From: Oscillospiraceae bacterium
GTDB taxonomy: Bacteria; Bacillota; Clostridia; UMGS1810
Reading direction: 5' to 3'
Assembly (NCBI GenBank): GCA_015069095.1
Contig: SVJH01000013.1
Location: 1-60,402, forward strand
DNA: 60,402 bases
A program made the position numbers and the translations under genes. This document shows, in pieces, positions 16,686 through 53,791 of the stretch; positions within the stretch are counted from its first letter, which is position 1, and each line of letters opens with the position of its first letter. The notes beneath the pieces were generated by a model, which did not search any database, was not told where the DNA came from, and worked only from the letters and a program-made list of their open reading frames with translations.

Positions 16686-17423
16686 TTATTTATTAAATAT
16701 AATTACACCGTTTTCATCAACAGTTCCTTTTCCTATAACACGACCGCAAACTGTAATTTCATCACCGTCTTTAAAATGTATTGGTGCATATTCTGGATTT
16801 TCACTTATAAGCGCATCTTTTCCAAGCCTTTTAACATATGATTCGCCGTTCTTTACAAAAATTCCTATTTCATTATATTCAATTTTATTTGTTTTTTCAA
16901 CAAACAAAATATCACCGTCATTATAAAGCGGAATCATACTGTTACCTTTTACAGATACTGTAAAGTCTGCATTATCGGGAATATCGCACGCTTTTACAAC
17001 ATCATAGTCGCTGCTTGTAAGAAGCATACCATTACCTGCAGATGCACCGATTACATAATGATTTATACTGCGAAGATTATGGTAAATGGTGTGTTTTGTT
17101 TCGTTAATTCTTTTTTGTTCTGCGTCAATTACCGCATTTACAGTGTGTCTTCCGTATGTATCAAGCGTATTATACTTTGCAAGAAGCATTTCCTCCTCTT
17201 TAGAAATGCTTTTTTTTGTTACGTTTAAAATATCGTAAATTTCGCATCCTAAAACTTTGCATATAGAAACAAGCGTTTGAATTTTAGGGTCTTTTGTCTG
17301 ACCGCTAAGAATTTTATCAAGTGTTCCTTTTGGTACTCCTGACATATCGGCAAGTTTTTGAGTGGTACACTTTTTCTCTTTTTTAATATTTAAAATTTCG
17401 TCAACATTGATAATTGTTGCCAT
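16686..17423 (-). CDS. XRE/S24 autocleavable repressor (CI/LexA-like)
   Basis: 245 residues from the ATG at 17421-17423 (GAGGTGAT site). An N-terminal XRE helix-turn-helix (TQKLADMSGVPKGTLDKILSG, residues 21-41) and a C-terminal S24 peptidase domain. All parts of the self-cleavage machinery are visible: Ala129-Gly130 cleavage site in GASAGNG, catalytic Ser162 in GNSMIP, and Lys198 in SYVKRL. The family represses prophage genes until RecA-stimulated cleavage after DNA damage. It is divergent from the phage-structural operon, across a region with three operators, so it is the probable master switch of that module. Confidence 0.9.
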   Translation of the reverse strand: MATIINVDEILNIKKEKKCTTQKLADMSGVPKGTLDKILSGQTKDPKIQTLVSICKVLGCEIYDILNVTKKSISKEEEMLLAKYNTLDTYGRHTVNAVIDAEQKRINETKHTIYHNLRSINHYVIGASAGNGMLLTSSDYDVVKACDIPDNADFTVSVKGNSMIPLYNDGDILFVEKTNKIEYNEIGIFVKNGESYVKRLGKDALISENPEYAPIHFKDGDEITVCGRVIGKGTVDENGVIIFNK

Positions 17424-17443
17424 TTTTATCACCTCATAACGAC

Positions 17444-17472
17444 ATTATACTACATATTTCGACGAATGTCAA
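17444..17472 (-). promoter_or_regulatory. Sigma-A promoter of the S24 repressor
   Basis: Minus-strand TTGACA (17467-17472), 17 bp, TATAAT (17444-17449); consensus quality. Operator 1 lies 10 bp upstream of the -35 box. Confidence 0.88.
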
Positions 17473-17482
17473 TCAAAAATTG

Positions 17483-17568
17483 TCCGTTAACGGAAAAATA
17501 TATCAAAAAATGTATTGACAAATTGCCATTAACGGAGTAATATTGTAAATGAAATATCCGTTGACGGA
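17483..17568. promoter_or_regulatory. Three operator palindromes between repressor and phage operon
   Basis: TCCGTTAACGGA (17483-17494, perfect palindrome), GCCATTAACGGA (17525-17536) and TCCGTTGACGGA (17557-17568). Centre spacings are 42 and 32 bp. The second sits in the spacer of the rightward promoter and the third just downstream of its -10, as expected for repression. I see no other copy of the motif in the window. Confidence 0.82.
17515..17543 (+). promoter_or_regulatory. Rightward promoter of the phage-like operon
   Basis: TTGACA (17515-17520), 17 bp, TAATAT (17538-17543). Operator 2 lies within the spacer. The leader to the first gene is about 200 nt and very A/T rich, with no ORF I can support. 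Confidence 0.8.
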
Positions 17569-17749
17569 TAAAAACAAAACAAAAAATTTTAAAAACTTGC
17601 CGTTTTTTCCGAATTTTTTGTGTTTTAATATAAATGTGCCCCGGTGAAAATAAAAAACACATCCACAAAAAACGGTTTGTTTTACAATTTTTGTTTTCCG
17701 AAAAAAATAATAAAAATCAAAAATTTGATTGCGTTGAGGGAGGTAAAGT

Positions 17750-18121
17750 ATGGACATTAGTTGTCTTTCTCAGCTTAATTATCTTGATAAAGAAATAAGA
17801 ATGCTGACAGATAAAATTAACAAATTAAATGAGAGAAAATCGAAAAAAGGTATTGGTTTTGATGCTGAATGCGAAGACGAAATTGTGTATCTTACAGATT
17901 TAATTAAAAACAGACGTAAAAAGTGCCTTCTTGACCAAAGAAGAATTGAAAATTTTATAAGCACAATATCAGACAGCCAGATGCGAATGATTATTTCATT
18001 AAGATATATAAATGGTCTTTCATGGCAACAGGTTGCTTTTGAAATGGGCGAATTTGACGAAAGTTATCCAAGAAAAAAGCATAACAAATTTTTAAAAGAT
18101 TTACAAAGGAGAGTAAGCTAA
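17750..18121 (+). CDS. Phage sigma-like transcription activator (Xpf/ArpU-type)
   Basis: 123 residues. The N-terminal half is a charged coiled coil. The C-terminal half, SQMRMIISLRYINGLSWQQVAFEMG, resembles sigma-70 region 4 (DNA-binding helix-turn-helix). Proteins of this size and layout (ArpU, Xpf of PBSX) activate late genes of Gram-positive prophages. A GGGAGG site precedes the ATG. It is the first gene under the rightward promoter and just upstream of the terminase genes, the position of Xpf in PBSX. It lacks region 2, so it is unlikely to be a complete sigma factor. Confidence 0.7.
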   Translation: MDISCLSQLNYLDKEIRMLTDKINKLNERKSKKGIGFDAECEDEIVYLTDLIKNRRKKCLLDQRRIENFISTISDSQMRMIISLRYINGLSWQQVAFEMGEFDESYPRKKHNKFLKDLQRRVS

Positions 18122-18122
18122 G

Positions 18123-18488
18123 ATGAAAATTGATTCACAGTTGATGGAAAAATTATGGAATGACTATAAAATTACAAAAAACTATAACGGTGTTGCTAAA
18201 AAACATGGTGTATCGGTTTATATGGTAAAAAAATCGGTGGAGCATTTTAGTAAAAATGATGACAAAGACGATGTTATTAAATACATTGATACAAAAAAGA
18301 AAGATGCTTGCGATTTTATAAGTAAATGTATGCTTATTATGTCAGACAACGACAAACTTGAAAAGGCATCTATCAACCAGATTGCTTCTGCTATGGGAAT
18401 TGTAATTGAAAAGTTTACAAAGAATTTATCTAAAGATGACGGTGTATTTTTAGACGAAATTATAAGGGCGGTTCAAAAAATTGAATAA
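18123..18488 (+). CDS. Probable phage terminase small subunit
   Basis: 121 residues. The N-terminus has a helix-turn-helix pattern (YNGVAKKHGVSVYMVKKSVEH, about residues 21-41), followed by helical segments. The call rests mainly on position: 1 bp after the activator gene and overlapping the terminase large subunit by 8 bp, where the DNA-recognition subunit is normally encoded. GGAGAG precedes the ATG. Confidence 0.6.
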   Translation: MKIDSQLMEKLWNDYKITKNYNGVAKKHGVSVYMVKKSVEHFSKNDDKDDVIKYIDTKKKDACDFISKCMLIMSDNDKLEKASINQIASAMGIVIEKFTKNLSKDDGVFLDEIIRAVQKIE

Positions 18489-19725
18489 AGAGATTTTTTC
18501 TAAAAAACAAAAAGAGTTTATATCAGTTTTCAAAAACGGCTCTTTAAAAAGAATAAATCTTTTAGAAGGAAGCGTAAGAAGCGGTAAAACGTATATAAGT
18601 TTAGTTGTATGGTCGCTTTACGTTGCAACAAAACCTAAAGATGCTATCTTTTTTATGGCAGGAAAGACGCTTGGTACACTAAAAAGAAACTGTCTTGACC
18701 TTTTAGAGAGTATGCTTGGAAAGAATGTGTTTACGTATTCGTTATCCAAAAAAGAAGCAATACTTTTTGGAAGAAAAGTTTACCTTGAAGGTGCAAACGA
18801 CAAACGAAGCGAGAGTAAAATCCGCGGTCTTACTCTTGACGGTGCATATCTTGACGAACTTACTTTATTTGATGAGGATTTTTTCTCAATGCTCCTTTCG
18901 CGTCTTTCAAAAAAAGGAGCAAAACTTATTGCGACAACAAATCCTGACAACCCTAATCACTGGCTCAATCAGAATTACATTTTAAGAAAAGACAAACTTG
19001 ATATGCTCATTATGAAATTCTTAATTGACGATAACATTTTCCTTGATAAAAAATACGTTGAAAACCTAAAAAAAGAGTACACCGGTGCATTTTACGATAG
19101 GTTTATTCTTGGAAAATGGAAAGCGGCAGACGGTGTTATTTATCCTGAATTTGCAAATGAAAGTGAAAAATTTATAGTGGATGAAGTAGACAAAAACGAT
19201 ATTGCTTTTGCAACTGTCGGTGTTGATTTTGGCGGAAACAAAAGTGCTCATGCGTTTGTATGCACAGGAATATTAAAGGGATTTAAAGGCGTTGTTGTAC
19301 TTGATGAGTTTTATCTTAAGGAAAAAGTTACATCGCAAAGGCTTGAGAGCGAATTTGTAAATTTTATAAAGCGTATAAAGAAAAACTACAATGTATGCGA
19401 TATTTACTGCGACAGTGCTGAAACAACGCTTATTTCATCTTTTAGTGCAAGAGCATATGCCGAGGGACTTTGTGTGGATGTAAGAAATGCTAAAAAAGGG
19501 AAAATAACACAAAGAATACAGTTTTTTAATATTCTTTTATCAAACGGTGCATTTTTTATTCACAGAAAATGCAAAAACGTATGCAGTGCACTATCTGAAG
19601 CGGTGTGGGATGCTGCATCCGATATGCGACTTGATGACGGCACGGTAAATGTAGACAGCCTTGATGCGCTTGAATACTCGTGCGAGGAATATATGAAAGA
19701 TATAATCTGTGTTTTAAGTAATTAA
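18481..19725 (+). CDS. Phage terminase large subunit (PBSX type)
   Basis: The DNA-packaging motor and nuclease. 414 residues from a TTG start. Walker A GSVRSGKT (residues 30-37) and Walker B GAYLDEL (near 121) make the ATPase; FIATTNPDN-like LIATTNPDNPNHW is the coupling motif. The RNase H-like nuclease domain starts at VGVDFGGNKSAHAF (near residue 245) and has a second acidic motif, DIYCDSAE. It matches the PBSX/XtmB family, whose member in Bacillus packages host DNA. All motifs are intact. Confidence 0.9.
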   Translation: MNKEIFSKKQKEFISVFKNGSLKRINLLEGSVRSGKTYISLVVWSLYVATKPKDAIFFMAGKTLGTLKRNCLDLLESMLGKNVFTYSLSKKEAILFGRKVYLEGANDKRSESKIRGLTLDGAYLDELTLFDEDFFSMLLSRLSKKGAKLIATTNPDNPNHWLNQNYILRKDKLDMLIMKFLIDDNIFLDKKYVENLKKEYTGAFYDRFILGKWKAADGVIYPEFANESEKFIVDEVDKNDIAFATVGVDFGGNKSAHAFVCTGILKGFKGVVVLDEFYLKEKVTSQRLESEFVNFIKRIKKNYNVCDIYCDSAETTLISSFSARAYAEGLCVDVRNAKKGKITQRIQFFNILLSNGAFFIHRKCKNVCSALSEAVWDAASDMRLDDGTVNVDSLDALEYSCEEYMKDIICVLSN

Positions 19726-19739
19726 GAAAGGAAACTAAA

Positions 19740-21065
19740 ATGAAGAATTTTTTCAGAAAAATGGGATATGAAACTGTGCCGGACGAGTTTTATTATCAGA
19801 TAGATAAATGGCTTGGCTGGTATAAAGGAAAAGTTGCAAGTTTTCACAGTTATAATCAGTATAACGGAAAAAAACTTATTGCAAGAGAAAGGGCAACCCT
19901 ATCTTCTGCAAAAAAGGTGTGCGAAGACTGGGCAAACCTTATTTTAAATGAAAAGATGGAAATAAACATACCAAATGAAGATATAAAAAAATATATTGAA
20001 AAAGTGCTTTTTGACAACAATTTCAAGGTGTGTGCAAACCGTCTTACAGAACTTGCTTTTGCACTTGGTACAGGTGCATTTGTAGAATATATAGACAATG
20101 GGAAAATTGTAATCGACTATATAGGTGCAAATATGATTTATCCTCTCTCGTGGGAAAATGGCAGGATTTATGAGTGCGCTTTTGCAAGTGAAAAGGTAGT
20201 CGATAAAAGGCGTGTTACTTATGTGAATATGCATATTTTAGAAGATGGAAAATACAAAATCGTAAATAAAATGTTTGATAAAAAAACTGGCGATGAAATA
20301 GAACTTCCAAAGGGCATTATGCCTTTTTACTACACAAACAGTTCTACTGCGTTTTTTCAGATTATAACGCCAAATATCGTAAACAATGTAGATTTTGAAA
20401 ATCCGATGGGAATTTCCGTTTTTGCAAATTCAATTGATGTCCTAAAAGGTATTGACCTTATTTTTGACAGTTATCAGAATGAATTTAGGCTTGGTAAAAA
20501 AAGAATTATTGTGCCCGTTACAATGGCGCAAATGATGAGCGATAAATCAGGACTTACACCTGTTTTTGACGATAACGATACCGAGTTTTATGCAATTAAG
20601 GCAAATGACGGGATAAATGATATTAAAGAAATAAATATGACGCTTCGCTCAGATGAGCACGAAACGGCACTTAAAAGATGTTTAAATCTTTTAAGTTTAA
20701 AATGCGGTCTTGGGTCATCAAGATACGACATTGACAAATCAGGTTTAAAAACTGCAACAGAGGTTATAAGTGAGAAAAGTGAACTTTATGAAAATCTTAA
20801 AAAGCATCAACTTGTAATGGAAAAAGCAATTTGCGACCTTGTGTATGCAATTTGTACTCTATCAGGTATAAAGTGCGATTTTGAAGTAAGTGTTTACTTT
20901 GATGACAGCATTATTGAAGATACAGGTGCTATTGCAAAAAGAATGCTTACAGAATATAAAAGCGGAGTTATAGATGATGTTGAATATTTTATGAAGGTTT
21001 ATAACCTTACAGAAGAAGCAGCAATAGAAAAAAGCGAAAAAATAAACGCAAGAATACTTAAATAA
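19740..21065 (+). CDS. Phage portal protein
   Basis: 441 residues, of the SPP1 gp6-like clostridial portal group. The dodecameric portal ring sits at one capsid vertex and is the channel for DNA entry and exit. Evidence is the N-terminal stretch with KWLGWYKGKVASFH, the central FENPMGISVFANSIDVLKGID, and the late GLKTATEVISEKSELYEN, together with its position directly after the terminase. AAAGGAA precedes the ATG. The gap after it (21066-21135) holds a weak GC-rich hairpin near 21075-21092. Confidence 0.85.
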   Translation: MKNFFRKMGYETVPDEFYYQIDKWLGWYKGKVASFHSYNQYNGKKLIARERATLSSAKKVCEDWANLILNEKMEINIPNEDIKKYIEKVLFDNNFKVCANRLTELAFALGTGAFVEYIDNGKIVIDYIGANMIYPLSWENGRIYECAFASEKVVDKRRVTYVNMHILEDGKYKIVNKMFDKKTGDEIELPKGIMPFYYTNSSTAFFQIITPNIVNNVDFENPMGISVFANSIDVLKGIDLIFDSYQNEFRLGKKRIIVPVTMAQMMSDKSGLTPVFDDNDTEFYAIKANDGINDIKEINMTLRSDEHETALKRCLNLLSLKCGLGSSRYDIDKSGLKTATEVISEKSELYENLKKHQLVMEKAICDLVYAICTLSGIKCDFEVSVYFDDSIIEDTGAIAKRMLTEYKSGVIDDVEYFMKVYNLTEEAAIEKSEKINARILK

Positions 21066-21135
21066 CCCTTTTTTAAGGCGGGGTAATGCCTTTTTATATA
21101 TAACAGTCGACGGACTTTAAACGGAAGGAGAACAT

Positions 21136-21660
21136 ATGTTTAACGAAAATGAAAATCTAAATGAAAAACAAAATGACGCAATTTTAGATATCACTTTGAA
21201 GAAAGAAAAAGAGCAACCAAGAAGTTTTACCCAACAAGAAGTAGATGAAATAGTAAAAAACCGTCTTGCAAGGGCTCTTAAAAATATGCCTTCAAAGGAG
21301 GAATTTTTAGATTTTGAAAATCTGAAAAAGAAAAATGAAGAAAATGAATCGGTTATAGAAAAACTTAAAGCAGAATCTGAGATAAATATGCAAAGGCTGC
21401 TCACTTATGAGCGATATGAAATGGTAAATAAAAAGGGCATTGATAAAAAATTCAAAGATTATGCAGTGTTTGAGGCGGAAAAGCTTATAAATGATGATGT
21501 GAGTTTTGATATGGCACTCGATATAGTCATAGAAAATAACGAATTTCTTATAAACAATTCGCCTCTTAAAACCGGTATAAGTCAGGGCTCAGTGGGAACA
21601 GGAATTTCGAGCCTTGAAGAAAGTTTTTATAAAAGAAATCCAAGTTTAAGAGAATTATAG
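21136..21660 (+). CDS. Phage capsid scaffolding protein (DUF4355-like)
   Basis: 174 residues, mostly helical with a predicted coiled coil and a typical scaffold motif, RSFTQQEVDEIVKNRLARAL, near residue 29. It lies between portal and major capsid, as scaffolds do. It would guide capsid assembly and then leave; no separate prohead protease gene is present. GGAGG-like AAGGAG precedes the ATG. The C-terminus ends with SLEESFYKRNPSLREL, probably the capsid-binding tail. Confidence 0.8.
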   Translation: MFNENENLNEKQNDAILDITLKKEKEQPRSFTQQEVDEIVKNRLARALKNMPSKEEFLDFENLKKKNEENESVIEKLKAESEINMQRLLTYERYEMVNKKGIDKKFKDYAVFEAEKLINDDVSFDMALDIVIENNEFLINNSPLKTGISQGSVGTGISSLEESFYKRNPSLREL

Positions 21661-21674
21661 GAGGAATTAAAATA

Positions 21675-22526
21675 ATGGCACATTTATTACAGGATAAATA
21701 TTCAAAACTAATTGATAAAAAATTACAGGCAACTTTAGTTACAAAAAGCGGATTTATTTTTAATGACCACTGCGAAGGCGATGCAGCCGGTGGTAAAGTT
21801 AAAATTCCCGTTCGTTCAACAGATGTTGTTGTAGGCGATTACGACAAAACAAACGGTATGGATTTGTCTTCCGGTTCAACATCATATATCGACCTTGATT
21901 TAAACTATGACAAAGCAGTAAACGAAATCATTGACGGTTACGACAAAAATGCAGTTCCTGATGATATCGTTGCAGAAAGACTTGACAGTGCTGGCTATGC
22001 TCTTGGTGTTGCAGAAGATACTATTTCCATAAAAGCACTTGAAAACGAAGGTACAGTTTATGAAGATACAAGCGAAGTTACAGTTGAAAATGTTTACGAT
22101 ACAATTGTAAGTTTAAGAACTAAACTTTCAGAAAAAAATGTACCTACAAATGACAGATGGATTATTGTATCACCAAAAGTTTACGGACTTCTTCTTAAAG
22201 ATACAACAAACTTTATCCGTCAGGGCGAACTTTCAGAAAACCTTATTGCAAACGGTGCGGTAGGCCGTATTGCAGGATTTAACGTATTTGAAAGTTCACT
22301 TCTTGCAAACGAAGATGAAAGCACACAGGAAGGAAAAACAGTTACAACAGAAATGATTGTGGGACATCCTTTATGGTGCCACAGAGTTGAAGCCTGGAGC
22401 GTTCCTGTTGGCGTAAAAGACCTTACAAACACATATATCGGTGCGTGCGCAGTACAGGGAAGAAAAATCTTCGGTGTTAAAATTTCAAACAAAGATGCAG
22501 TTATTGTAAAAAGATTTGAAGCGTAA
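21675..22526 (+). CDS. Phage major capsid protein
   Basis: 283 residues, probably of HK97 fold. It begins MAHLLQDKYSKLIDKKLQATL and contains GGKVKIPVRSTDVVVGDY, IDGYDKNAVPDDIVAERLDSAG and the later AVQGRKIFGVKISNKDAVIVKRFEA. The length matches capsids of clostridial PBSX-like prophages that use a separate scaffold and no protease. A GGAGG site precedes the ATG. The region uses more frequent codons than neighbouring phage genes, consistent with high expression. Confidence 0.87.
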   Translation: MAHLLQDKYSKLIDKKLQATLVTKSGFIFNDHCEGDAAGGKVKIPVRSTDVVVGDYDKTNGMDLSSGSTSYIDLDLNYDKAVNEIIDGYDKNAVPDDIVAERLDSAGYALGVAEDTISIKALENEGTVYEDTSEVTVENVYDTIVSLRTKLSEKNVPTNDRWIIVSPKVYGLLLKDTTNFIRQGELSENLIANGAVGRIAGFNVFESSLLANEDESTQEGKTVTTEMIVGHPLWCHRVEAWSVPVGVKDLTNTYIGACAVQGRKIFGVKISNKDAVIVKRFEA

Positions 22527-22557
22527 GAAATATTGTATATAAAAGGAGATGATTTTT

Positions 22558-22881
22558 ATTATTGACTTTGATTATTACAAAAACAATTTTTTAGGTACTT
22601 TAGTTCCATGCGATAAGTTTTATCACATTGAAAAAAAGGCGTGTGTATATGTAAAAAATGCAATATTAAATAAAAACTCCGACATAACAGAGGTTAAAGA
22701 TGCCGTATGTGCGGTTTGCGAACTTATTTATAACGAAGAAAAAAGAAACGGAATAAAAAGCGAAAATAACGATGGATACGCTGTTACATATTTTGATAAT
22801 CCATCTTTTACACAAAAGGTAAATGATGTAATAACTATTTATCTTGCAACTACGGGTCTTATGTACTGCGCAATAGGTTGA
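22558..22881 (+). CDS. Phage head-tail connector protein, probable ATT start
   Basis: About 108 residues. The frame contains an ATG at 22549, but it abuts GGAG (22545-22548) with no spacing, so ribosomes cannot use it well. The next in-frame candidates are ATT codons at 22558 and 22561, 9-12 bp after GGAG, giving MIDFDYYKNNFLGTL. The sequence KSENNDGYAVTYFDN resembles adaptor proteins of clostridial prophages that join portal and tail. It is followed 14 bp later by the next connector gene. Confidence 0.65.
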   Translation: MIDFDYYKNNFLGTLVPCDKFYHIEKKACVYVKNAILNKNSDITEVKDAVCAVCELIYNEEKRNGIKSENNDGYAVTYFDNPSFTQKVNDVITIYLATTGLMYCAIG

Positions 22882-22895
22882 AGGAGAAGTAAAAA

Positions 22896-23180
22896 ATGAT
22901 AGTACTGTTTAAGAAAAAAGATACAGGATATGAAAAACATATTTTTTATGACACTTCCATTTATGTATGCGACGGTATAGACGAAAAAGATAACGGATTT
23001 TACAAAAACAGAAGTGTAACCATAAGGATTTTTGACGTAGGAGATACCAAAATTGCGCCTGAAGACAAGGTCGAATTTGCAAGTGGTCTTACATCTCCTA
23101 CAAAGGAAGCCTATACAGTTATGAAAGTTTTTGACAATAAAAAAGGCATAAATCCTCATGTAAGGATTGAAGTAAAATGA
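22896..23180 (+). CDS. Phage head-closure/connector-region protein
   Basis: 94 residues, beta-rich, no motif I can name. Its position between the connector and the HK97-gp10-like gene fits a head-closure or stopper protein. GAAGGAGA precedes the ATG, and the stop overlaps the next start (ATGA). Function is inferred from gene order only. Confidence 0.6.
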   Translation: MIVLFKKKDTGYEKHIFYDTSIYVCDGIDEKDNGFYKNRSVTIRIFDVGDTKIAPEDKVEFASGLTSPTKEAYTVMKVFDNKKGINPHVRIEVK

Positions 23181-23503
23181 TAATAAAAAAAACATCGCTT
23201 ATTCCAAAAAATATACTGTTTTCTTCGTTTGGATTTGGAATTTTGCAGATGACGTTTGATAATTTGATTATTAAAAAATGCGAACCGTATATTCCAAAAA
23301 AGACGGGGAATTTAATAAGAAGTGCTGTGCCTTTTAACGGATATGTTATGTGGAGCGCGCCTTATGCAAAAAAACAGTATTACACACATAAAGGAAAGGG
23401 ACTAAGAGGACCTTTTTGGGTTGAAAGAATGTGGGCAGATACGAAAAAAGAAATTATGAATAATCTTAAAGGAGTTATAAATGATAGCAGAAAGCGTAGT
23501 TAA
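23177..23503 (+). CDS. Phage minor head-tail joining protein (HK97 gp10-like)
   Basis: 108 residues. Features such as YIPKKTGNLIRSAV and MWSAPYAKKQYYTHKGKG resemble the minor capsid/tail-completion group. The first 4 bp overlap the previous gene and the last 23 bp overlap the next, which is tight coupling typical of phage morphogenesis genes. Confidence 0.65.
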   Translation: MIIKKTSLIPKNILFSSFGFGILQMTFDNLIIKKCEPYIPKKTGNLIRSAVPFNGYVMWSAPYAKKQYYTHKGKGLRGPFWVERMWADTKKEIMNNLKGVINDSRKRS

Positions 23504-23888
23504 TTTTTTACAAAAGTGTCCGCATATAAAAGGCGGAGTGGTATCGCTTGATTTTTTGACATCAAAACCTGAAAATTATGCGGTTGAAACATCGCCTGCA
23601 TCTGTTATTTTAAAAACGTACACAGACGGCTCGTGTCTTAAACAGTTTTCGTTTGTTTTTGCATCAAGACAGTATTTCGGAGATGAAATAAATACCGAAA
23701 ATCATAAGTTTTACGAGGACTTATCAAACTGGTTTAAAAAATGCACAGACGAAAAAAATCTGCCACATCTTGATGGGGGCAAAACAAGTCAGAGCATAGA
23801 AACTTTAAATGGCTCATATGTGTACGAAACAGCGACAAACACTGCAAGATATCAGGTGCAGTGCAGATTAGTTTATTTTGAAAAATAA
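23481..23888 (+). CDS. Phage tail terminator-like minor capsid protein
   Basis: 135 residues, alpha/beta, with LYFEK-like end RLVYFEK and a central FVFASRQYFGDEINTENHKFYEDLSNWF that resembles clostridial minor capsid/tail terminator proteins. It begins inside the previous gene behind AAAGGAG. It is followed by the tail tube gene, as expected for a terminator that caps the tail. Confidence 0.65.
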   Translation: MIAESVVNFLQKCPHIKGGVVSLDFLTSKPENYAVETSPASVILKTYTDGSCLKQFSFVFASRQYFGDEINTENHKFYEDLSNWFKKCTDEKNLPHLDGGKTSQSIETLNGSYVYETATNTARYQVQCRLVYFEK

Positions 23889-23902
23889 GAAGGGAGAATA
23901 TG

Positions 23903-24400
23903 ATGGGAACTTTAGTTAAAAGAAGCGACAAAGTAGCATTTTACGGCGTAAAAAACGGCGAAAATGTTACATATAAAAGAATGAGAGGATTTACTGATAT
24001 GTCAATCAGTAAAAATCCTAAAGAATATACAAGAAAATACATTGACGAACAGTTTGAACAAAGTGATGTTGTAGGCTTTAGTCCTTCAATTTCATTTACT
24101 TTTGATTCGTTTTTGGACGACGATGTTCAAAACGATATTTTAAATATTTCCGAAAATGAACTTCTTGGTCAGGAAGCAGTAAGAGAAATCATTATTGTTG
24201 ATTTGAAAAGACAAAAAGACGAAGGTTTTTATGCAGTAAAAAGAACGTTCTCGGTTATTGTGGAAAGCGAAGGAAATTCAGACGAAGCATATCAGATGTC
24301 GGGAACATTTAAAGTTAAAGGCGAAAAAGAATTCGGAACTGCTACATCGGGCGATGACTGGGAAAGTCTTACATTTACAAAAGATGCAGACAAAATTTAA
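23903..24400 (+). CDS. Phage major tail (tube) protein
   Basis: 165 residues. Two ATGs occur in tandem (23900 and 23903); the second has the better spacing from AGGGAG. The sequence opens MGTLVKRSDKVAFYGVK and contains RMRGFTDMSISKNPKEYTRKYIDE and a C-terminal TFKVKGEKEFGTAT, typical of tube proteins of long-tailed phages in Gram-positives. Position between terminator and Gp15 supports the call. Confidence 0.75.
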   Translation: MGTLVKRSDKVAFYGVKNGENVTYKRMRGFTDMSISKNPKEYTRKYIDEQFEQSDVVGFSPSISFTFDSFLDDDVQNDILNISENELLGQEAVREIIIVDLKRQKDEGFYAVKRTFSVIVESEGNSDEAYQMSGTFKVKGEKEFGTATSGDDWESLTFTKDADKI

Positions 24401-24413
24401 GGTGTGATTTAAT

Positions 24414-24971
24414 ATGGATATTTTAACATCGCCGCTTCCTTGTGCGGTAAAGTGCGGCAATAAATTTTATAAAATAAATACAGATTTTAGAGTGTGGATA
24501 GAAATAGAAAATATATTCTGGGACGATAGTATTAAAAAAAGCGAAAAACTTGCAAAAGTACTTTTTCTCGCATACAAAACCCTTCCGCCAACAATAGAAG
24601 ATGCGCTTGGGGCAATTATGAGTTTTTACCTTATGGGAAATGGTAAAACCCAAAACAAAAGGAGCGCAAAAAAAGTAAAAAGGCTTTATTCATTTAAGGA
24701 AGATGCACCATATATTTACAGTGCATTTTTAAAAGAATATAGCATAGACCTTACAAAAACAGATCTTCATTGGTGGCAGTTTATATCGCTTTTTAAATCA
24801 CTTGGCGATGACAACAAAATTTGCCGTATAATACGATGGCGTGCGATGGATACTGAAAATATCAAAAACAAAGAAGAAAAGAAATTCGTAAGAAAAATGA
24901 AGCACTTGTACAGACTTGAGTGTGAACAAAATGACGATGATTTAATATACGCACTTGAGGGTTTGTTTTAA
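24414..24971 (+). CDS. Phage Gp15 family tail-assembly protein
   Basis: 185 residues. The motif YSFKEDAPYIYSAFLKEY ... DLHWWQFISLFKSL is the hallmark of the Gp15 family encoded just upstream of tape-measure genes. It probably acts as a tail-assembly chaperone. There is no sign of a -1 frameshift product of the gpG/gpGT kind. A 13-bp hairpin follows. Confidence 0.82.
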   Translation: MDILTSPLPCAVKCGNKFYKINTDFRVWIEIENIFWDDSIKKSEKLAKVLFLAYKTLPPTIEDALGAIMSFYLMGNGKTQNKRSAKKVKRLYSFKEDAPYIYSAFLKEYSIDLTKTDLHWWQFISLFKSLGDDNKICRIIRWRAMDTENIKNKEEKKFVRKMKHLYRLECEQNDDDLIYALEGLF

Positions 24972-24972
24972 T

Positions 24973-25003
24973 TTTATATGCCGCATCTTTTGCGGCATAT
25001 AAA
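24973..25003 (+). terminator. Strong hairpin between Gp15 and tape-measure genes
   Basis: Thirteen-bp perfect stem (TTTATATGCCGCA / TGCGGCATATAAA) with loop TCTTT. No U tract follows on the plus strand, so it may set mRNA stability or partial termination rather than full stop. Confidence 0.6.
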
Positions 25004-25030
25004 AATTATTTAAAAAGGGAGTGATTATTT

Positions 25031-26254
25031 TTGAATTATGACGGCGAAATTGTAATTGGCACAAAAGTAGATACCGAAGGACTTGAAAAAGGAATTGATG
25101 ACGTTGAAAATCTTTTAAAGGACGGAAAAGTATTTAAAAGAGTAGGAAAAGACGAAATGGGAAACGCCCTTGTCGACGGCATAAGTGTTGCTATAAAGGA
25201 AAGCTCGACAGAACTTAGCAAGGAAGTTATAAACGCTTTTAGTGCGCTTGAACTTAAAAAGAAAATGAACGTTGTAAGTGAAGAAGAATATTATAAAGAA
25301 CTTGAAAAATTGCGTGATAATTATCTTGAAAAAGGCACTGCTGACTGGTGGAAATACACTGTTGAAATTGTAAGATATGAAAATGAAGTTGTTGAAAATC
25401 AAAAAAAGAATATTGAAAAACTAACCGAAGAAATATCAAAAAATATAGAAGATAAATTTTCTGATGTGGCGCAAAATGTCGATACTGTTATGAAAAAAAG
25501 CGTATCGGAATACGAAAGCAAAATAAAAGCCATAAATAAAAACGAAGAAAAAATGAAAGATAAACTTTCATCCTATGGCGGAATTTATGCAACTGCAACA
25601 TTTAAAACAGGCGACAAAGAAAAAAGTTATCTTGAAGACGGTGTGTGGAAAAGAAAATCTCCCGATATTACAATCGTTGACGTAAACGATTTGAAGGGCG
25701 AAATAAAAGTTTTAAATGAATATGAAAGCGTGCTTAAATCCATTTTTGAAAATAAAAACATTTCCAAAGAATTTTTTGATTCGTTTAAAAATCTTGGTGT
25801 TGAAGACGGAATAAAAATTGCAAAAAGCATTCTTTCGCTCAGCGATGATGCTCAAAAAGAGTATATGTCTTTGTGGAACAGTAAAAATGATGCAGCAGAT
25901 AGTGTATCATCCTTTATGTACAACGAAGACAGAATTTTGGCAAAAAATGAACTCAGCAGCAAATTAAAAGAGGCATTCGGAAGCGTTGATGAAACATTTT
26001 TATCGGAAGAAGGACAAAAATGGGCATCGTCGTTTGGCGATTCATTCAAAGATAAAATATCTGAAACAATGGATAGCGTTAAAAGTATTATTTCTGAAAA
26101 AATATCAGAGATTGAATATTCAATAAATTTAGATACCGAAAAAAACGGCAATACGCTTGTGTATAATCTTTACGGCGCGGGCGAGAGTGTGTCGGAAAAA
26201 CTAAAAAGTGCAAAAGCATTTTCTGAACTTGAAAAATTAAGGGGTGGATACTAA
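25031..26254 (+). CDS. Short tape-measure-like tail protein
   Basis: 407 residues from a TTG behind GGGAGTGAT. The N-terminus NYDGEIVIGTKVDTEGLEKGIDD is the usual start of tape-measure proteins. The rest is long helix and coiled coil with no clear transmembrane stretch. Tape measures are commonly 600 to over 1000 residues; at roughly 1.5 angstrom per residue this one would set a tail of about 60 nm. It may be a naturally short or a shortened form. It overlaps the next gene by 1 bp. Confidence 0.7.
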   Translation: MNYDGEIVIGTKVDTEGLEKGIDDVENLLKDGKVFKRVGKDEMGNALVDGISVAIKESSTELSKEVINAFSALELKKKMNVVSEEEYYKELEKLRDNYLEKGTADWWKYTVEIVRYENEVVENQKKNIEKLTEEISKNIEDKFSDVAQNVDTVMKKSVSEYESKIKAINKNEEKMKDKLSSYGGIYATATFKTGDKEKSYLEDGVWKRKSPDITIVDVNDLKGEIKVLNEYESVLKSIFENKNISKEFFDSFKNLGVEDGIKIAKSILSLSDDAQKEYMSLWNSKNDAADSVSSFMYNEDRILAKNELSSKLKEAFGSVDETFLSEEGQKWASSFGDSFKDKISETMDSVKSIISEKISEIEYSINLDTEKNGNTLVYNLYGAGESVSEKLKSAKAFSELEKLRGGY

Positions 26255-27102
26255 TGCATTTGATATACGAAAACAAATACGGCATTGTAAGTATGGGAAA
26301 CACATCGGACAGATGGCGTATTATTGATATAAAAGGACTTAATCTTACAGACAAAACTTACAGCGTTATAAGATATGCCGCATTTGGCGGTCAGGAAACA
26401 GTTTATACGTCATCAGACGCCAGAATTATTACTGTTTCGGGCGATGTTTACAGCGAAAATCTTAAAGAAGAAATGGAAAGAGCGCTAAGAATTTTTAATG
26501 AAGAAGGCTCGCTTTCTGTAATATCAAAAGATAAACAACGTCTTATAAAATGCTCAAGAATAACATTTAACGAAGTAGAAAGAATGGGCTCGTATTTAAA
26601 ATTCACATTGCAGTTTATTTGCGATAATCCTTACTTTTTTGACCTCTTCCCTACCGTTACAGGCGTTTTTGATACAACGGGACTTTTAAAAACATCTTTT
26701 ACGCTTCCGTGTACTTTTTCAACAAGAAACAACAAAAGATATATTGTAAATCAGGGAGATATAAATACTGAACCGATATTTAAAATTTATCTTCAAAATG
26801 AAGCAGAACTTCAGCAGGGCGATGAACGCGGATATAAAATTACAAATCTTACAACCAACCAGATGATATGGCTTAAATATCAACTTTGTGAGGGCGAGGT
26901 TGTTACGATAGATATTCCCGGAAGAAGCATTGAAAGTAATATATACGGAAATATAATCATAAACATTTCTGACGATACTTTTTTAAACGATTTTACGCTT
27001 CAAAAAGGCGAAAATCTTATAAGTGTTTTAAATTACAATGCAAATGAAACAGTAAAGGTTGAATGTATTTACGACAATATGTACGTAGAGGCGGTGTATT
27101 AA
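26254..27102 (+). CDS. Phage distal tail protein (Dit-like)
   Basis: 282 residues. The pattern NTSDRWRIIDIKGLNLTD followed by SVIRYAAFGGQETVYTSSDARII and FNEVERMGSYLKFTLQFICDNPYF is typical of the Dit family that forms the hub at the tail tip. It starts in the TAATG of the tape-measure gene and ends directly before the Gp37-like gene. Confidence 0.82.
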   Translation: MHLIYENKYGIVSMGNTSDRWRIIDIKGLNLTDKTYSVIRYAAFGGQETVYTSSDARIITVSGDVYSENLKEEMERALRIFNEEGSLSVISKDKQRLIKCSRITFNEVERMGSYLKFTLQFICDNPYFFDLFPTVTGVFDTTGLLKTSFTLPCTFSTRNNKRYIVNQGDINTEPIFKIYLQNEAELQQGDERGYKITNLTTNQMIWLKYQLCEGEVVTIDIPGRSIESNIYGNIIINISDDTFLNDFTLQKGENLISVLNYNANETVKVECIYDNMYVEAVY

Positions 27103-28038
27103 ATGGATGATATACGTTTTTACGATTTTGACTTTAATCTATTAAATATTGAAAACAAGGCAAGTTATATAAACTGGACAATAAAATACAATGGTATAGG
27201 TACATTTGAAGCACACTTCCCTATAAAAAGCAAAATTTTAAAAACTGCTCTTGAAACCGATTATTTAATTGCTGTTCAGGGAGAAAATCAGGCAATAATA
27301 ACGGGCAAACAGGCAAATGAAAAACTTGTTTTATACGGAAGAACTCCAAACTGGCTTTTGACAAAAAGGGTAACACCAAAGTTTTCAAAAATAACGGGTA
27401 CACCGGAGGAAATATCAAGAAACATTGTTGAAGATGCATTTAGTGATGTTGAAAATTTTAAAACAGAAAAGTATGAAAACAGTTTTGAAAAGATAAATTT
27501 TTGGAGAAATGTGTATAATCCTACCGAAAAAGTTGTAAAAGAGTGTTTAGACAGAATTGGTGCAGGGCACATGGTAATTGCTGATGTAAAAAACAAAAAC
27601 TGGATTTACAAAATGCAGATGGGAAAGGTGCGCGACCTTATTATTTCATCAACCAATAAAAATGCGTATAACGAAACGTATACAGAGGATTTTCAGGACC
27701 ATGTAAACGGCGGATGGTATGAAAGTTATGCAGAAGATGACTCAGGCAGCAGTCAGTGGATGTACATAGAATCCGATAAAGAGGGAATTTACAAATGGAT
27801 TGGAGTTTTAGGCGGGCAGAGCGAGAGCGAGGCAAAAGACAGCCTTAACTCAAGAGAGTGGGAAAAGGAAATTTCGCTTGAAACAAAAGATGTAAAATAC
27901 AAAAAAGATTATTTTCTTGGCGATACCGTTAAACTTAAAGTGTGCTTCGGTAACTTTAAAACGACTATTTCAAAAAAAGTAAAAGGTGTTAAGATGGAAT
28001 ACGAAAACGGTATTTATACAGAAAATCCGATATTTTAA
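27103..28038 (+). CDS. Siphovirus Gp37-like tail protein
   Basis: 311 residues. MDDIRFYDFDFNLLNIENKASYINWTIKY and FEAHFPIKSKI match the ReqiPepy6 Gp37-like group encoded next to Dit. The GRTPNWLLTKRVTPKF stretch and YFLGDTVKLK near the end fit as well. It probably is a tail-hub or tail-associated component. The ATG directly follows the Dit stop. Confidence 0.75.
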   Translation: MDDIRFYDFDFNLLNIENKASYINWTIKYNGIGTFEAHFPIKSKILKTALETDYLIAVQGENQAIITGKQANEKLVLYGRTPNWLLTKRVTPKFSKITGTPEEISRNIVEDAFSDVENFKTEKYENSFEKINFWRNVYNPTEKVVKECLDRIGAGHMVIADVKNKNWIYKMQMGKVRDLIISSTNKNAYNETYTEDFQDHVNGGWYESYAEDDSGSSQWMYIESDKEGIYKWIGVLGGQSESEAKDSLNSREWEKEISLETKDVKYKKDYFLGDTVKLKVCFGNFKTTISKKVKGVKMEYENGIYTENPIF

Positions 28039-28058
28039 TTTTATGAAAGGATGATAAA

Positions 28059-28904
28059 ATGGGATATACTTACAGTTTTTCAGACGATGAAATATATGGT
28101 GCAAAAGATATAAACGATATTACAAAAAGACTTGTAACATCCGGTATTGAAGATGATTTTTCAGATGGAACGCCATACAACATAGGCAGGCTTAATATAA
28201 TATCGCAAAATATAGCAACAGAAGGCGTTGTTCCTGAAGATAACACATCGCTTAAAGTTGAGTATTTGGAAGAAGGAAAAATTAAAATCAATAAAGGTTG
28301 TGCTTTTTTAGAAAGCGGAAAAACATTTACAGTAGACGAAGAAGGAGTAATTTTGGATTTTTCGCCGACTGCTTTAAATTACGTTTACATAGAAGATAAC
28401 GATACGCTTTCAAAAATTATACCGCGCGCAAGTAACGAACTTCCCTTGGGATATGACTATCTTCTTTTGGCAACGGTGTCGACAAAAGGCGTTGTAACTG
28501 ACAAAAGAACGTTTGCAAAAGGAAAACTTCCTGGGTATATGAGCGACTTTAATACACCGAAAAGATTTACCGTAAATGTTGAAGATGAAGGCGAAATAGA
28601 AGTTGACATCGGAAGAAGCGATGCTAATTTTATTATGATTACAGAAAAGTATGACGACCTTACTTCAAACCCTTACGATTCTTTTGGTGTATGGAATAAG
28701 TTTGATGGTGAGTATCTTTATACAACAGGAAATATGAAAGGTGTAAGACGTGGTGATGGCGGTTTTTATTTAAGACCATATGGTACACAAAGTTATGTTC
28801 TTAAAGTTACTGTAGCCATTGAAGGAACAACGATGAAAGTTAATGTAACAAGAGCAGTGGAGGTTTCAAGAATAAAAACAAGGTTTGAAATTACAGTTAT
28901 GTAA
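28059..28904 (+). CDS. Last gene of the phage module, probable baseplate/receptor-binding protein
   Basis: 281 residues; begins MGYTYSFSDDEIYGAKDINDITKRLV. Beta-rich with no collagen repeats, long fibre, or enzyme motif. Proteins with a similar N-terminus follow Gp37-like genes in clostridial prophages and probably decorate the tail tip. AAAGGAT precedes the ATG. No holin or endolysin follows; the next gene is cellular with its own promoter. Confidence 0.6.
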   Translation: MGYTYSFSDDEIYGAKDINDITKRLVTSGIEDDFSDGTPYNIGRLNIISQNIATEGVVPEDNTSLKVEYLEEGKIKINKGCAFLESGKTFTVDEEGVILDFSPTALNYVYIEDNDTLSKIIPRASNELPLGYDYLLLATVSTKGVVTDKRTFAKGKLPGYMSDFNTPKRFTVNVEDEGEIEVDIGRSDANFIMITEKYDDLTSNPYDSFGVWNKFDGEYLYTTGNMKGVRRGDGGFYLRPYGTQSYVLKVTVAIEGTTMKVNVTRAVEVSRIKTRFEITVM

Positions 28905-28918
28905 CATTCAATTTTTTA

Positions 28919-28947
28919 TTGACTACTTTTTCAAAAAATAATATAAT
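28919..28947 (+). promoter_or_regulatory. Sigma-A promoter of the cytidylate-kinase-like gene
   Basis: TTGACT (28919-28924), 17 bp, TATAAT (28942-28947), starting only 14 bp after the last phage-type gene. It marks the right edge of the phage module. Confidence 0.85.
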
Positions 28948-28969: not shown

Positions 28970-29584
28970 ATGCAGAAAAAAATCATCACAATAAGCAGAC
29001 AGTTTGCATGCGGAGGAAAAGAAATAGGAAAACTTGTTGCCAAAAAGTTAAATATAGATTTTTATGATAAAGAACTTCTTGCGATAGTTGCAAAAAAGAG
29101 CGGGTATGCTATTGAATTTTTAGAAGAAACGGGCGAATATGTAAATGCAAGTCTTTTGTTTAACGTTGCAACAAGTGCAATGGTAGGACATCGTCAGTTT
29201 GTGCAAAATCACGAAATGCCTCTTTCTGATAAAGTTTATGTGGCGCAGCATAACATAATAAAAGAACTCGCCGAAAAAGGCCCTTGTGTAATAATCGGAC
29301 GTGGTGCAGACAGCATACTTAAAGACAGAGATGACGTGTTTAATGTGTTTATCTGTGCTGATATGGATTTTAGAAAAGAACGCGCATTAAAATATCACAA
29401 AATGGAAGAAAAAAACCTTGAAAAAGAAATATTAAAGCGTGATAAAAAACGTGCAGCGCATTACAATCACTACTCCGACGGCACGTGGGGCGATGCAAGA
29501 AATTACCACTTAACACTAAACAGTTCAGTTTTTGGAATTGAAAAGTGTGCTGATATAATTTGTAATTTAATACAGGATATGTAA
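28970..29584 (+). CDS. Cytidylate kinase-like family protein
   Basis: 204 residues from the ATG at 28970 behind AAGGGG. It begins QKKIITISRQFACGGKEIGKLVAKKL: a P-loop-like nucleotide-kinase start in which the classical GKS/T is replaced by GGKEIG, the mark of the cytidylate kinase-like family (Cytidylate_kin2). GPCVIIGRGADSIL and RALKYHKMEEKNLEKEILKRDKKRAAHYNHY (lid region) agree. A role in nucleotide phosphorylation is likely but unproven; it differs from canonical Cmk. Own promoter and terminator. Confidence 0.85.
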   Translation: MQKKIITISRQFACGGKEIGKLVAKKLNIDFYDKELLAIVAKKSGYAIEFLEETGEYVNASLLFNVATSAMVGHRQFVQNHEMPLSDKVYVAQHNIIKELAEKGPCVIIGRGADSILKDRDDVFNVFICADMDFRKERALKYHKMEEKNLEKEILKRDKKRAAHYNHYSDGTWGDARNYHLTLNSSVFGIEKCADIICNLIQDM

Positions 29585-39927: not shown

Positions 39928-39949
39928 TTTATTATAATTTGAGGTTTTT

Positions 39950-40056
39950 TGTAACTGGCGGAAAATACGTAAGAATAATATGTTTTTTACGAATAAAAGT
40001 GGATGACCACGAGGAAGCAAAAAGCTTATAGCAAAATGTCGACCGTCTGGGCAGTC
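39950..40056 (+). ncRNA. ZTP (pfl) riboswitch aptamer
   Basis: Binds ZMP/ZTP, the purine intermediate that accumulates when 10-formyltetrahydrofolate is short. The conserved elements are in order: AACTGGCGG (39953-39961), GTGGATGACCACGAGGAAGC (39999-40018) and the pseudoknot segment CCGTCTGGGCA (40043-40053). The last segment shares GGGCA with the left arm of the following terminator, giving the usual transcriptional ON switch. It controls purE and the downstream genes including fhs, which makes 10-formyltetrahydrofolate. Confidence 0.95.
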
Positions 40057-40082
40057 CTATCTTATACAAAATAGGACTGCCC
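40049..40082 (+). terminator. Riboswitch-controlled terminator
   Basis: Twelve-bp stem GGGCAGTCCTAT / ATAGGACTGCCC with a 10-nt loop, then TAATTTATTTT. Ligand binding would sequester GGGCA in the aptamer pseudoknot and prevent the stem. Confidence 0.93.
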
Positions 40083-52664: not shown

Positions 52665-52905
52665 AATTTTTTAATAATTCTTCAAATGTAGTATTAAAAA
52701 TTTTAGCAAATGCTATTATTTCTATATCCGTTACAAATCTTTTCCCACATTCTATTCTCTGAATGGCGTTTTTATCTATGTCAATTCCTATAAGTTGCAT
52801 TCTGTCAGCAAGTTCCCTTTGCGAAATTTTAATATCACGCCTAAACCTGCTTATATTTTTTCCGCAAACGTTATTTAATCCATCTTTTGTTTTGTTAATA
52901 AACAT
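52663..52905 (-). CDS. XRE-family transcriptional regulator
   Basis: 80 residues from the ATG at 52903-52905 (AAAGGAG site). Almost the whole protein is one helix-turn-helix: ISRFRRDIKISQRELADRMQ, then NAIQRIECGKRFVTDIEIIAFAKIF. No sensing domain. It is divergent from the zinc-ribbon membrane protein across a pair of repeated operators, so it probably regulates itself and that gene. Confidence 0.88.
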   Translation of the reverse strand: MFINKTKDGLNNVCGKNISRFRRDIKISQRELADRMQLIGIDIDKNAIQRIECGKRFVTDIEIIAFAKIFNTTFEELLKN

Positions 52906-52921
52906 AAAATTTTCTCCTTTT

Positions 52922-52993
52922 TGACATTTAGTGCTTGTCAACAACAAAATTATATGCTATAATTAACTAAAATATGACATTTAGTGGATGTCA
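52922..52993. promoter_or_regulatory. Twin operators of the XRE regulator
   Basis: TGACATTTAGTGCTTGTCA (52922-52940) and TGACATTTAGTGGATGTCA (52975-52993), 53 bp apart centre to centre. Each is a TGACA/TGTCA inverted repeat. The first overlaps the -35 of the rightward promoter; the second lies 21 bp before the zinc-ribbon start. Confidence 0.78.
52935..52963 (+). promoter_or_regulatory. Promoter of the zinc-ribbon gene
   Basis: TTGTCA (52935-52940), 17 bp, TATAAT (52958-52963), with the -35 inside operator 1. Confidence 0.75.
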
Positions 52994-53716: not shown

Positions 53717-53791
53717 TGGAGCGGAAGACGAGATTCGAACTCGCGACGTTCACCTTGGCAAGGTGACGCTCTACCACTGAGCCACTCCCGC
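53717..53791 (-). tRNA. tRNA-Gly (anticodon GCC)
   Basis: 75 nt on the minus strand with an encoded CCA end. Acceptor GCGGGAG pairs with CTTCCGC, the D arm is GGCTCAGTGGTAGAGC, the anticodon stem-loop is CACCTTGCCAAGGTG with anticodon GCC, and the T arm contains GTTCGAATC. Reads GGC and GGU codons. Confidence 0.97.

Follow-up and report, generated by a model that had tools for sequence, protein, structure and literature searches.

To our knowledge, gene transfer agents (GTAs) are well documented in few lineages and are rare outside the Alphaproteobacteria. A 2026 study reported that host fragments of 4.6-8.9 kb are packaged in a GTA-like manner in gut Ruminococcaceae, Oscillospiraceae, and Christensenellaceae (PMC12946183). 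Among those gut Clostridia an operon was identified only for Faecalibacterium: FpGTA, the first GTA from gut Clostridia, which is described as podovirus-like, with a second operon that holds its fibre and lysis genes (Borodovich et al. 2026, PMC12946183). In the open-access literature, to which our search was confined, no siphovirus-type GTA was found in Clostridia. Here we describe a head-tail module of siphovirus type located next to yigZ in an Oscillospiraceae bacterium (contig SVJH01000013.1; genome of 2.06 Mb, denoted as G000, genus g1). "The window" is the whole stretch of this contig that was analysed, 60,402 nucleotides (60 kb). The module is very probably domesticated. It is likely to be a host-maintained, vertically inherited siphovirus module whose selected function is GTA-like DNA packaging and transfer.

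The yigZ module in two genera

The module is present in three of the 16 genomes of the family, which make up the whole order in the genome collection. Outside the window it adjoins yigZ in G003 (metagenome-assembled genome, MAG, SIG443; SVJU01000015.1) and G008 (MAG SUG37; JALEIO010000094.1), both from genus g4 of the same family. Orientation and gene order are as in the window, and only the repressor is missing in G003. An alignment-based scan of the collection found only these two genomes and two distant phage-like loci; a scan with a single capsid protein gave no match. Protein lengths in the window, G003, and G008 are 283, 283, and 283 residues for the capsid, 282, 281, and 281 for the distal tail protein (Dit), 281, 281, and 280 for the last gene, and 407, 391, and 402 for the tape measure. 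Between G003 and G008 synteny extends over both flanks. Their module proteins have a mean identity of 59% (TerL 77%, portal 75%, capsid 83%) and their flanking chromosomal proteins one of 68% (range 52-87%); the module and the surrounding chromosome have diverged to a similar extent.

Host and module trees also agree. In the rny tree of the family, g1 (the window), g2, and g4 are joined with supports of 100/99. The window, G003, and G008 are joined both in a concatenated tail-gene tree (100/100) and in a TerL-portal tree (93/97). In both module trees G003 and G008 are sisters, and a Mu-like prophage on contig 8 of the window genome falls outside. The simplest history would be a single gain in the common ancestor of g1, g2, and g4, followed by loss in g2.

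As is asked of a GTA, the module is inherited vertically at a fixed chromosomal site (yigZ in two genera, with tree agreement; lost or absent in g2). Genes for integration, excision, and replication are missing from the module of the window and likewise from those of G003 and G008. The structural and packaging genes are intact and under purifying selection: the proportion of nonsynonymous differences (pN) is far below that of synonymous ones (pS) between G003 and G008, where synonymous sites are saturated, the Walker and nuclease residues of TerL are invariant, and genus g217, described below, has low ratios of nonsynonymous to synonymous rates (dN/dS). Conservation within the module is highest for TerL, portal, and capsid.

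Organization of the module

The module extends from 16686 to 28904 (12.2 kb) and is 95% coding. GC content is 33.2%, compared with 35.0% in the remaining window. Pfam and PHROGs matches identify the S24 repressor, a sigma-region-4-like regulator, TerL, an SPP1-type portal, scaffold, major capsid, and head-tail adaptor, followed by minor capsid, tail completion, major tail protein, Gp15, Dit, and a Gp37-like protein. The small terminase (TerS), second connector, tape measure, and last gene have weak or no family matches and are named from position, relatives, and models. The features are as follows.

16686..17432, minus strand: repressor, Cro/CI-type helix-turn-helix (HTH) and S24 peptidase (HTH_26/HTH_3, Peptidase_S24 5e-22, phrog_4; SAGNG cleavage site, Ser/Lys dyad; aligned with the G008 repressor)
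17483..17494, no strand: operator 1, perfect palindrome TCCGTTAACGGA (CCGTTAACGG also in the repressor/activator gap of G008)
17515..17543, plus strand: promoter of the structural operon, consensus-like TTGACA-N17-TAATAT (from sequence)
17525..17536, no strand: operator 2, GCCATTAACGGA, within the promoter spacer (sequence pattern)
17557..17568, no strand: operator 3, TCCGTTGACGGA (sequence pattern)
17750..18121, plus strand: sigma-region-4-like late activator (phrog_36 4e-18, weak Sigma70_r4_2; kept in G003, G008, and G379)
18123..18488, plus strand: TerS, predicted N-terminal HTH and helical oligomerisation part (position, relatives, AlphaFold model)
18481..19725, plus strand: TerL, intact Walker and nuclease motifs (Terminase_6N 2e-14, phrog_2 6e-46; invariant motifs)
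19740..21065, plus strand: portal, SPP1 Gp6 type (PF05133 2e-19, phrog_533 7e-106)
21136..21660, plus strand: scaffolding protein (phrog_2303 1e-5; kept in relatives)
21675..22526, plus strand: major capsid protein (phrog_267 5e-38; 73-74% identity to G003 and G008)
22549..22881, plus strand: head-tail adaptor (phrog_541 1e-16)
22896..23180, plus strand: second connector-like protein (weak DUF6751/phrog_3366; conserved position)
23177..23503, plus strand: minor capsid protein (Minor_capsid_2 3e-9)
23481..23888, plus strand: tail completion protein (phrog_3266 3e-38)
23900..24400, plus strand: major tail (tube) protein (phrog_3099, phrog_820; alignment)
24414..24971, plus strand: Gp15-family tail assembly protein (PF06854 3e-47)
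25031..26254, plus strand: tape measure, short, 407 residues, no hydrophobic segment (position, alignment, hydropathy; homologous to part of the 1261-residue tape measure of the contig 8 prophage)
26254..27102, plus strand: Dit (SPP1_Dit, phrog_33)
27103..28038, plus strand: Gp37-like baseplate/tail protein (Sipho_Gp37 1e-12, phrog_538)
28059..28904, plus strand: tail-fibre or receptor-binding-like protein (no family match; model with a predicted local distance difference test score, pLDDT, of 71; weak Foldseek matches to phage tail fibre and receptor-binding proteins)

An initial annotation of this DNA had described an intact head-tail cluster with every frame open, and the 17 frames are indeed intact where it placed them. 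It had seen no integrase, excisionase, replication, prohead protease, holin, or endolysin gene; with all frames of the module accounted for, none of these is found, nor is a transposase. As had been noted, the last gene ends (at 28904) 14 bp before a promoter of the next, cellular gene; this TTGACT...TATAAT-like promoter begins at 28919. The TTG at 28919 was also proposed as the start of the cytidylate-kinase-like gene, and here the ATG at 28970 is more probable. No convincing att-like direct or inverted repeats surround the module, only short AT-rich chance matches, and site-specific integration was rejected. A defence role for the unnamed module proteins was discarded, as PADLOC returned marginal matches only. 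Elsewhere in the window there are a ZMP/ZTP riboswitch (39941-40059) upstream of a run of purine synthesis genes and a small HTH_3 regulator (52666-52947) near tRNA-Gly (53717-53791), with no adjoining phage genes.

Repressor and operators

The gap between repressor and activator is 317 bp long and contains three 12-bp palindromes. The structural-operon promoter is directed into the structural genes, and operator 2 lies inside its spacer. In the 2.06-Mb genome the operator pattern occurs at five sites, three in this gap and two inside unrelated genes. With two mismatches allowed, the 60-kb window has three matches, and 20 of 100 shuffles also reach three. The count in the window is thus no higher than chance could give; the case for the operators rests on conservation and on their grouping within a single gap. 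In G008, from the other genus, the same gap carries ACCGTTAACGGT just downstream of TTGACA-17-TAGTAT, and CCGTTAACGG is common to both genera; the repressor/operator switch is conserved between the two genera. The repressor of the window carries SAGNG, Ser, and Lys, as expected of a protein that cleaves itself. A remote lysis operon under the same repressor was not found by the genome-wide operator search, whose two additional sites are both intragenic.

A Mu-like prophage in the same genome

In addition to the locus described initially, the window genome holds a second, complete relative of it, a Mu-like prophage on contig 8 (about 9-38 kb; L061, L017, L018). Its TerL, portal, capsid, connectors, tube, Gp15, Dit, Gp37-like, and fibre proteins are homologous to those of the module, with 57-68% identity in TerL, portal, capsid, and tube. 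Unlike the module, it has a Mu-type transposase (Mu-transpos_C, HTH_Tnp_Mu_2), an AAA ATPase, an additional head-region protein of 498 residues, a tape measure of 1261 residues, and a Peptidase_M15_3 lysin, and it lies outside the module clade. As an internal control, this prophage illustrates the gene content of a complete phage in this structural family and, by comparison, what the yigZ module lacks. An autonomous temperate phage was rejected as the identity of the module, in which integrase or transposase and replication genes are not present. 3' of the prophage fibre gene are a papain-like protease that carries an S-layer homology domain and a second tail-tube-like protein, whose 361 residues include a long C-terminal extension.

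Similar modules in other Clostridia

Modules with a short tape measure turned up in several further clostridial families when a tape-measure profile was used as the query. Maps of G379, G326, G183, G311, G190, and G025 show the same gene order, with housekeeping genes on either side and no integrase or replication gene seen. In G377 (L277, contig 41) the module is partly deleted; capsid to Dit are kept beside a CorC-like gene, and TerL and portal are gone.

In genus g217 (L279, L305, L308, L309, L310, L307), the tape measure or module is found in all nine species, and recD2 follows the module in each of the six whose contig reaches that flank. Intact copies are 80-83% (TerL) and 84-92% (capsid) identical to those of G379. 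For the pair G404/G407, where dS is about 1, dN/dS is 0.050 for TerL, 0.036 for portal, 0.040 for capsid, and 0.094 for the tape measure, compared with 0.047 for the neighbouring recD2; dS of the module is unsaturated and equal to that of recD2. In g217, module dN/dS is mostly 0.04-0.1. Most g217 modules carry lysis genes, and their TerS has no HTH. The g217 module is a stronger GTA candidate than that of the window.

Genus g70 (L285-L289) has a related module in six of eight species, with Gp15 relocated ahead of the capsid. Flanks such as the YabP-YabQ genes are common to some species pairs only. The tape measures are 568-658 residues long in the copies read.

The same organization recurs in several IMG/VR contigs of 9-15 kb (L197, L198, L200, L201, L203). 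Upstream, L203 has a secreted-looking protein of 376 residues in place of phage genes, so some of these contigs may be bacterial chromosome, not virus. A faecal record, MT836120 (13 kb, six-frame open reading frames), gave a portal match and an 875-residue frame at its cut end and was set aside as not informative.

Proposed function and alternatives

In the window species, a repressor dimer on the three palindromic operators would shut the TTGACA-17-TAATAT promoter. Upon DNA damage the repressor would cleave itself, assisted by RecA, and the sigma-like activator would then switch the late operon on. An SPP1-type portal is compatible with headful packaging. It is from this mode that RcGTA is thought to have arisen (PMC7947584). 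Together with TerS and TerL, the portal would load small, scaffold-built heads in the headful mode with any host DNA available, since no replicating phage genome competes. The heads would attach to a tail approximately 60 nm long (407 residues x about 0.15 nm), and the terminal fibre-like protein would direct the particles to kin cells. Release would depend on a lysis function encoded elsewhere. The host would benefit from DNA delivery or, alternatively, from killing.

Several observations weigh against a GTA-like function or against the history proposed for it. A small terminase without the N-terminal DNA-binding domain is a proposed GTA marker, and that of RcGTA is of this kind (PMC6854486). 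The window TerS is modelled by AlphaFold with an N-terminal HTH (pLDDT 79-95) and does not carry the marker, and the G008 TerS, by alignment, probably has the HTH too. TerS of G003 (81 residues) and g217 (87-91 residues) begin after the HTH region and so pass. No lysis gene lies in the cluster, and none was found elsewhere, Amidase_2 being the only family sought genome-wide (absent in G000 and G003). In the G008 repressor the cleavage site is gone and Arg replaces the catalytic Lys, so SOS control is proposed for the window species only; G003 has lost both the repressor gene and such an operator. Synonymous sites are saturated between the yigZ-linked copies. The window and g4 flanks have yigZ on the left as their sole common neighbour, the right flanks being different, and in the related genus g2 there is no module and yigZ has other neighbours. 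All genomes compared are metagenome assemblies. L202, an IMG/VR contig of the same organization, carries a phage replication O gene together with a tape measure of 451 residues; a short tail is thus no proof of domestication, and a short tape measure alone was dropped as a mark of it. Finally, particles, packaging, and transfer are predicted here from genes. The module is classified as GTA-like and not as a proven GTA, since its defining properties, packaging of essentially random host DNA and delivery of it to recipient cells, are predictions, and one proposed marker, TerS, fails.

The initial annotation had proposed domestication, to be judged from the yigZ interval of related genomes, from flanking repeats, and from presence in close relatives. 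Two g4 species, G003 and G008, do carry the module genes in the same order beside yigZ, no convincing att repeats were found, and g2 is without the module. The same site and gene set in another genus, a divergence like that of the flanks, purifying selection, and the lack of att sites and integrase all speak for domestication. The absence from g2 and the missing repressor of G003 speak in part against it, yet they do not overturn the case.

The main alternative is a killer particle of PBSX type, domesticated and filled with DNA but not injecting it, with the killing of kin without immunity as its selected benefit. PBSX has been described as tailocin-like in action, not injecting (PMC12946183). 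In the fibre-like protein encoded by the last gene, the C-terminal part has diverged faster than the start; this and a tape measure without a hydrophobic segment would suit such a particle. The order of repressor, sigma-like activator, and terminase is as in PBSX, and to this extent the initial label "PBSX-like" holds. The contractile sheath and lysis cassette are not present, however (no sheath family among the 17 module proteins by Pfam and PHROGs), which excludes membership in the PBSX family. Killing would also not need a packaging motor and capsid under strong constraint, yet no module genes are better conserved than those for TerL, portal, and capsid. We consider a killer particle unlikely.

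Missing integration, replication, and lysis genes and the absence from g2 could also mean an ordinary prophage remnant not yet decayed, inserted twice independently beside yigZ. This is very improbable: site, orientation, and gene set are identical in two genera, divergence is like that of the chromosome, module trees match host trees, and all structural frames are intact after such divergence. Just as improbable is a satellite or helper-dependent element that relies for its mobilisation on a resident phage, for example the contig 8 prophage, which encodes related structural proteins and whose Peptidase_M15_3 lysin could bring about release. The integrase and replication gene are missing, satellites change sites while the module stays at one, and in g4, which has the module, searching with capsid and TerL revealed no second phage related to it.

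For the GTA-like, host-maintained module, recurrence in g217 and g70 appears to give independent support for the same design. We tentatively suggest an undescribed, class-wide family of siphovirus-type GTAs in Clostridia, with compact modules of 12-16 kb that have tape measures of about 350-460 residues and occupy fixed sites of their own (yigZ, recD2, and others) in several bacterial families. If it exists, it could explain GTA-like packaging in gut Clostridia lacking a known operon, and some of its members sit in virus catalogues as short viral contigs. If a siphovirus-type module is fixed throughout whole clostridial genera, such particles would be common and ancient in gut bacteria. The loci, each equipped with repressor and operators, are defined targets for asking whether and why bacteria keep such modules.

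Comparison with known systems

Like the yigZ module, PBSX of Bacillus subtilis, a defective phage, is chromosomal and has repressor, sigma-like activator, and terminase in this order; the module differs in having no sheath gene, no holin/endolysin cassette, and a very short tape measure. The compact modules of other Clostridia (g217, g70, G025, G183, G311, G326, G190) share with it an identical or near-identical gene order, a short tape measure, housekeeping neighbours, and no visible integrase or replication gene. They differ in that several end in holin and amidase or lysozyme genes, in the HTH-less TerS of g217, and in the moved Gp15 of g70.

The RcGTA type of Alphaproteobacteria is, from general knowledge and not from sequence comparison, also a siphovirus-like head-tail cluster that is inherited vertically, lacks integration and replication genes, and evolves under purifying selection. 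It belongs to another class, and the module has S24-type repressor control, a scaffold, and no prohead protease seen. While RcGTA TerS lacks the HTH, the window TerS keeps it (PMC6854486).

FpGTA, compared by description and not by sequence, resembles the module in its operon of about 10 kb with TerS, TerL, portal, scaffold, and capsid, in its genus-wide presence in a clostridial genus, and in having lysis genes outside the main operon. While FpGTA is described as podovirus-like and needs a second operon for baseplate, fibre, and lysis, a single operon of the yigZ module provides the full siphovirus tail set (tape measure, tube, Dit, and fibre).

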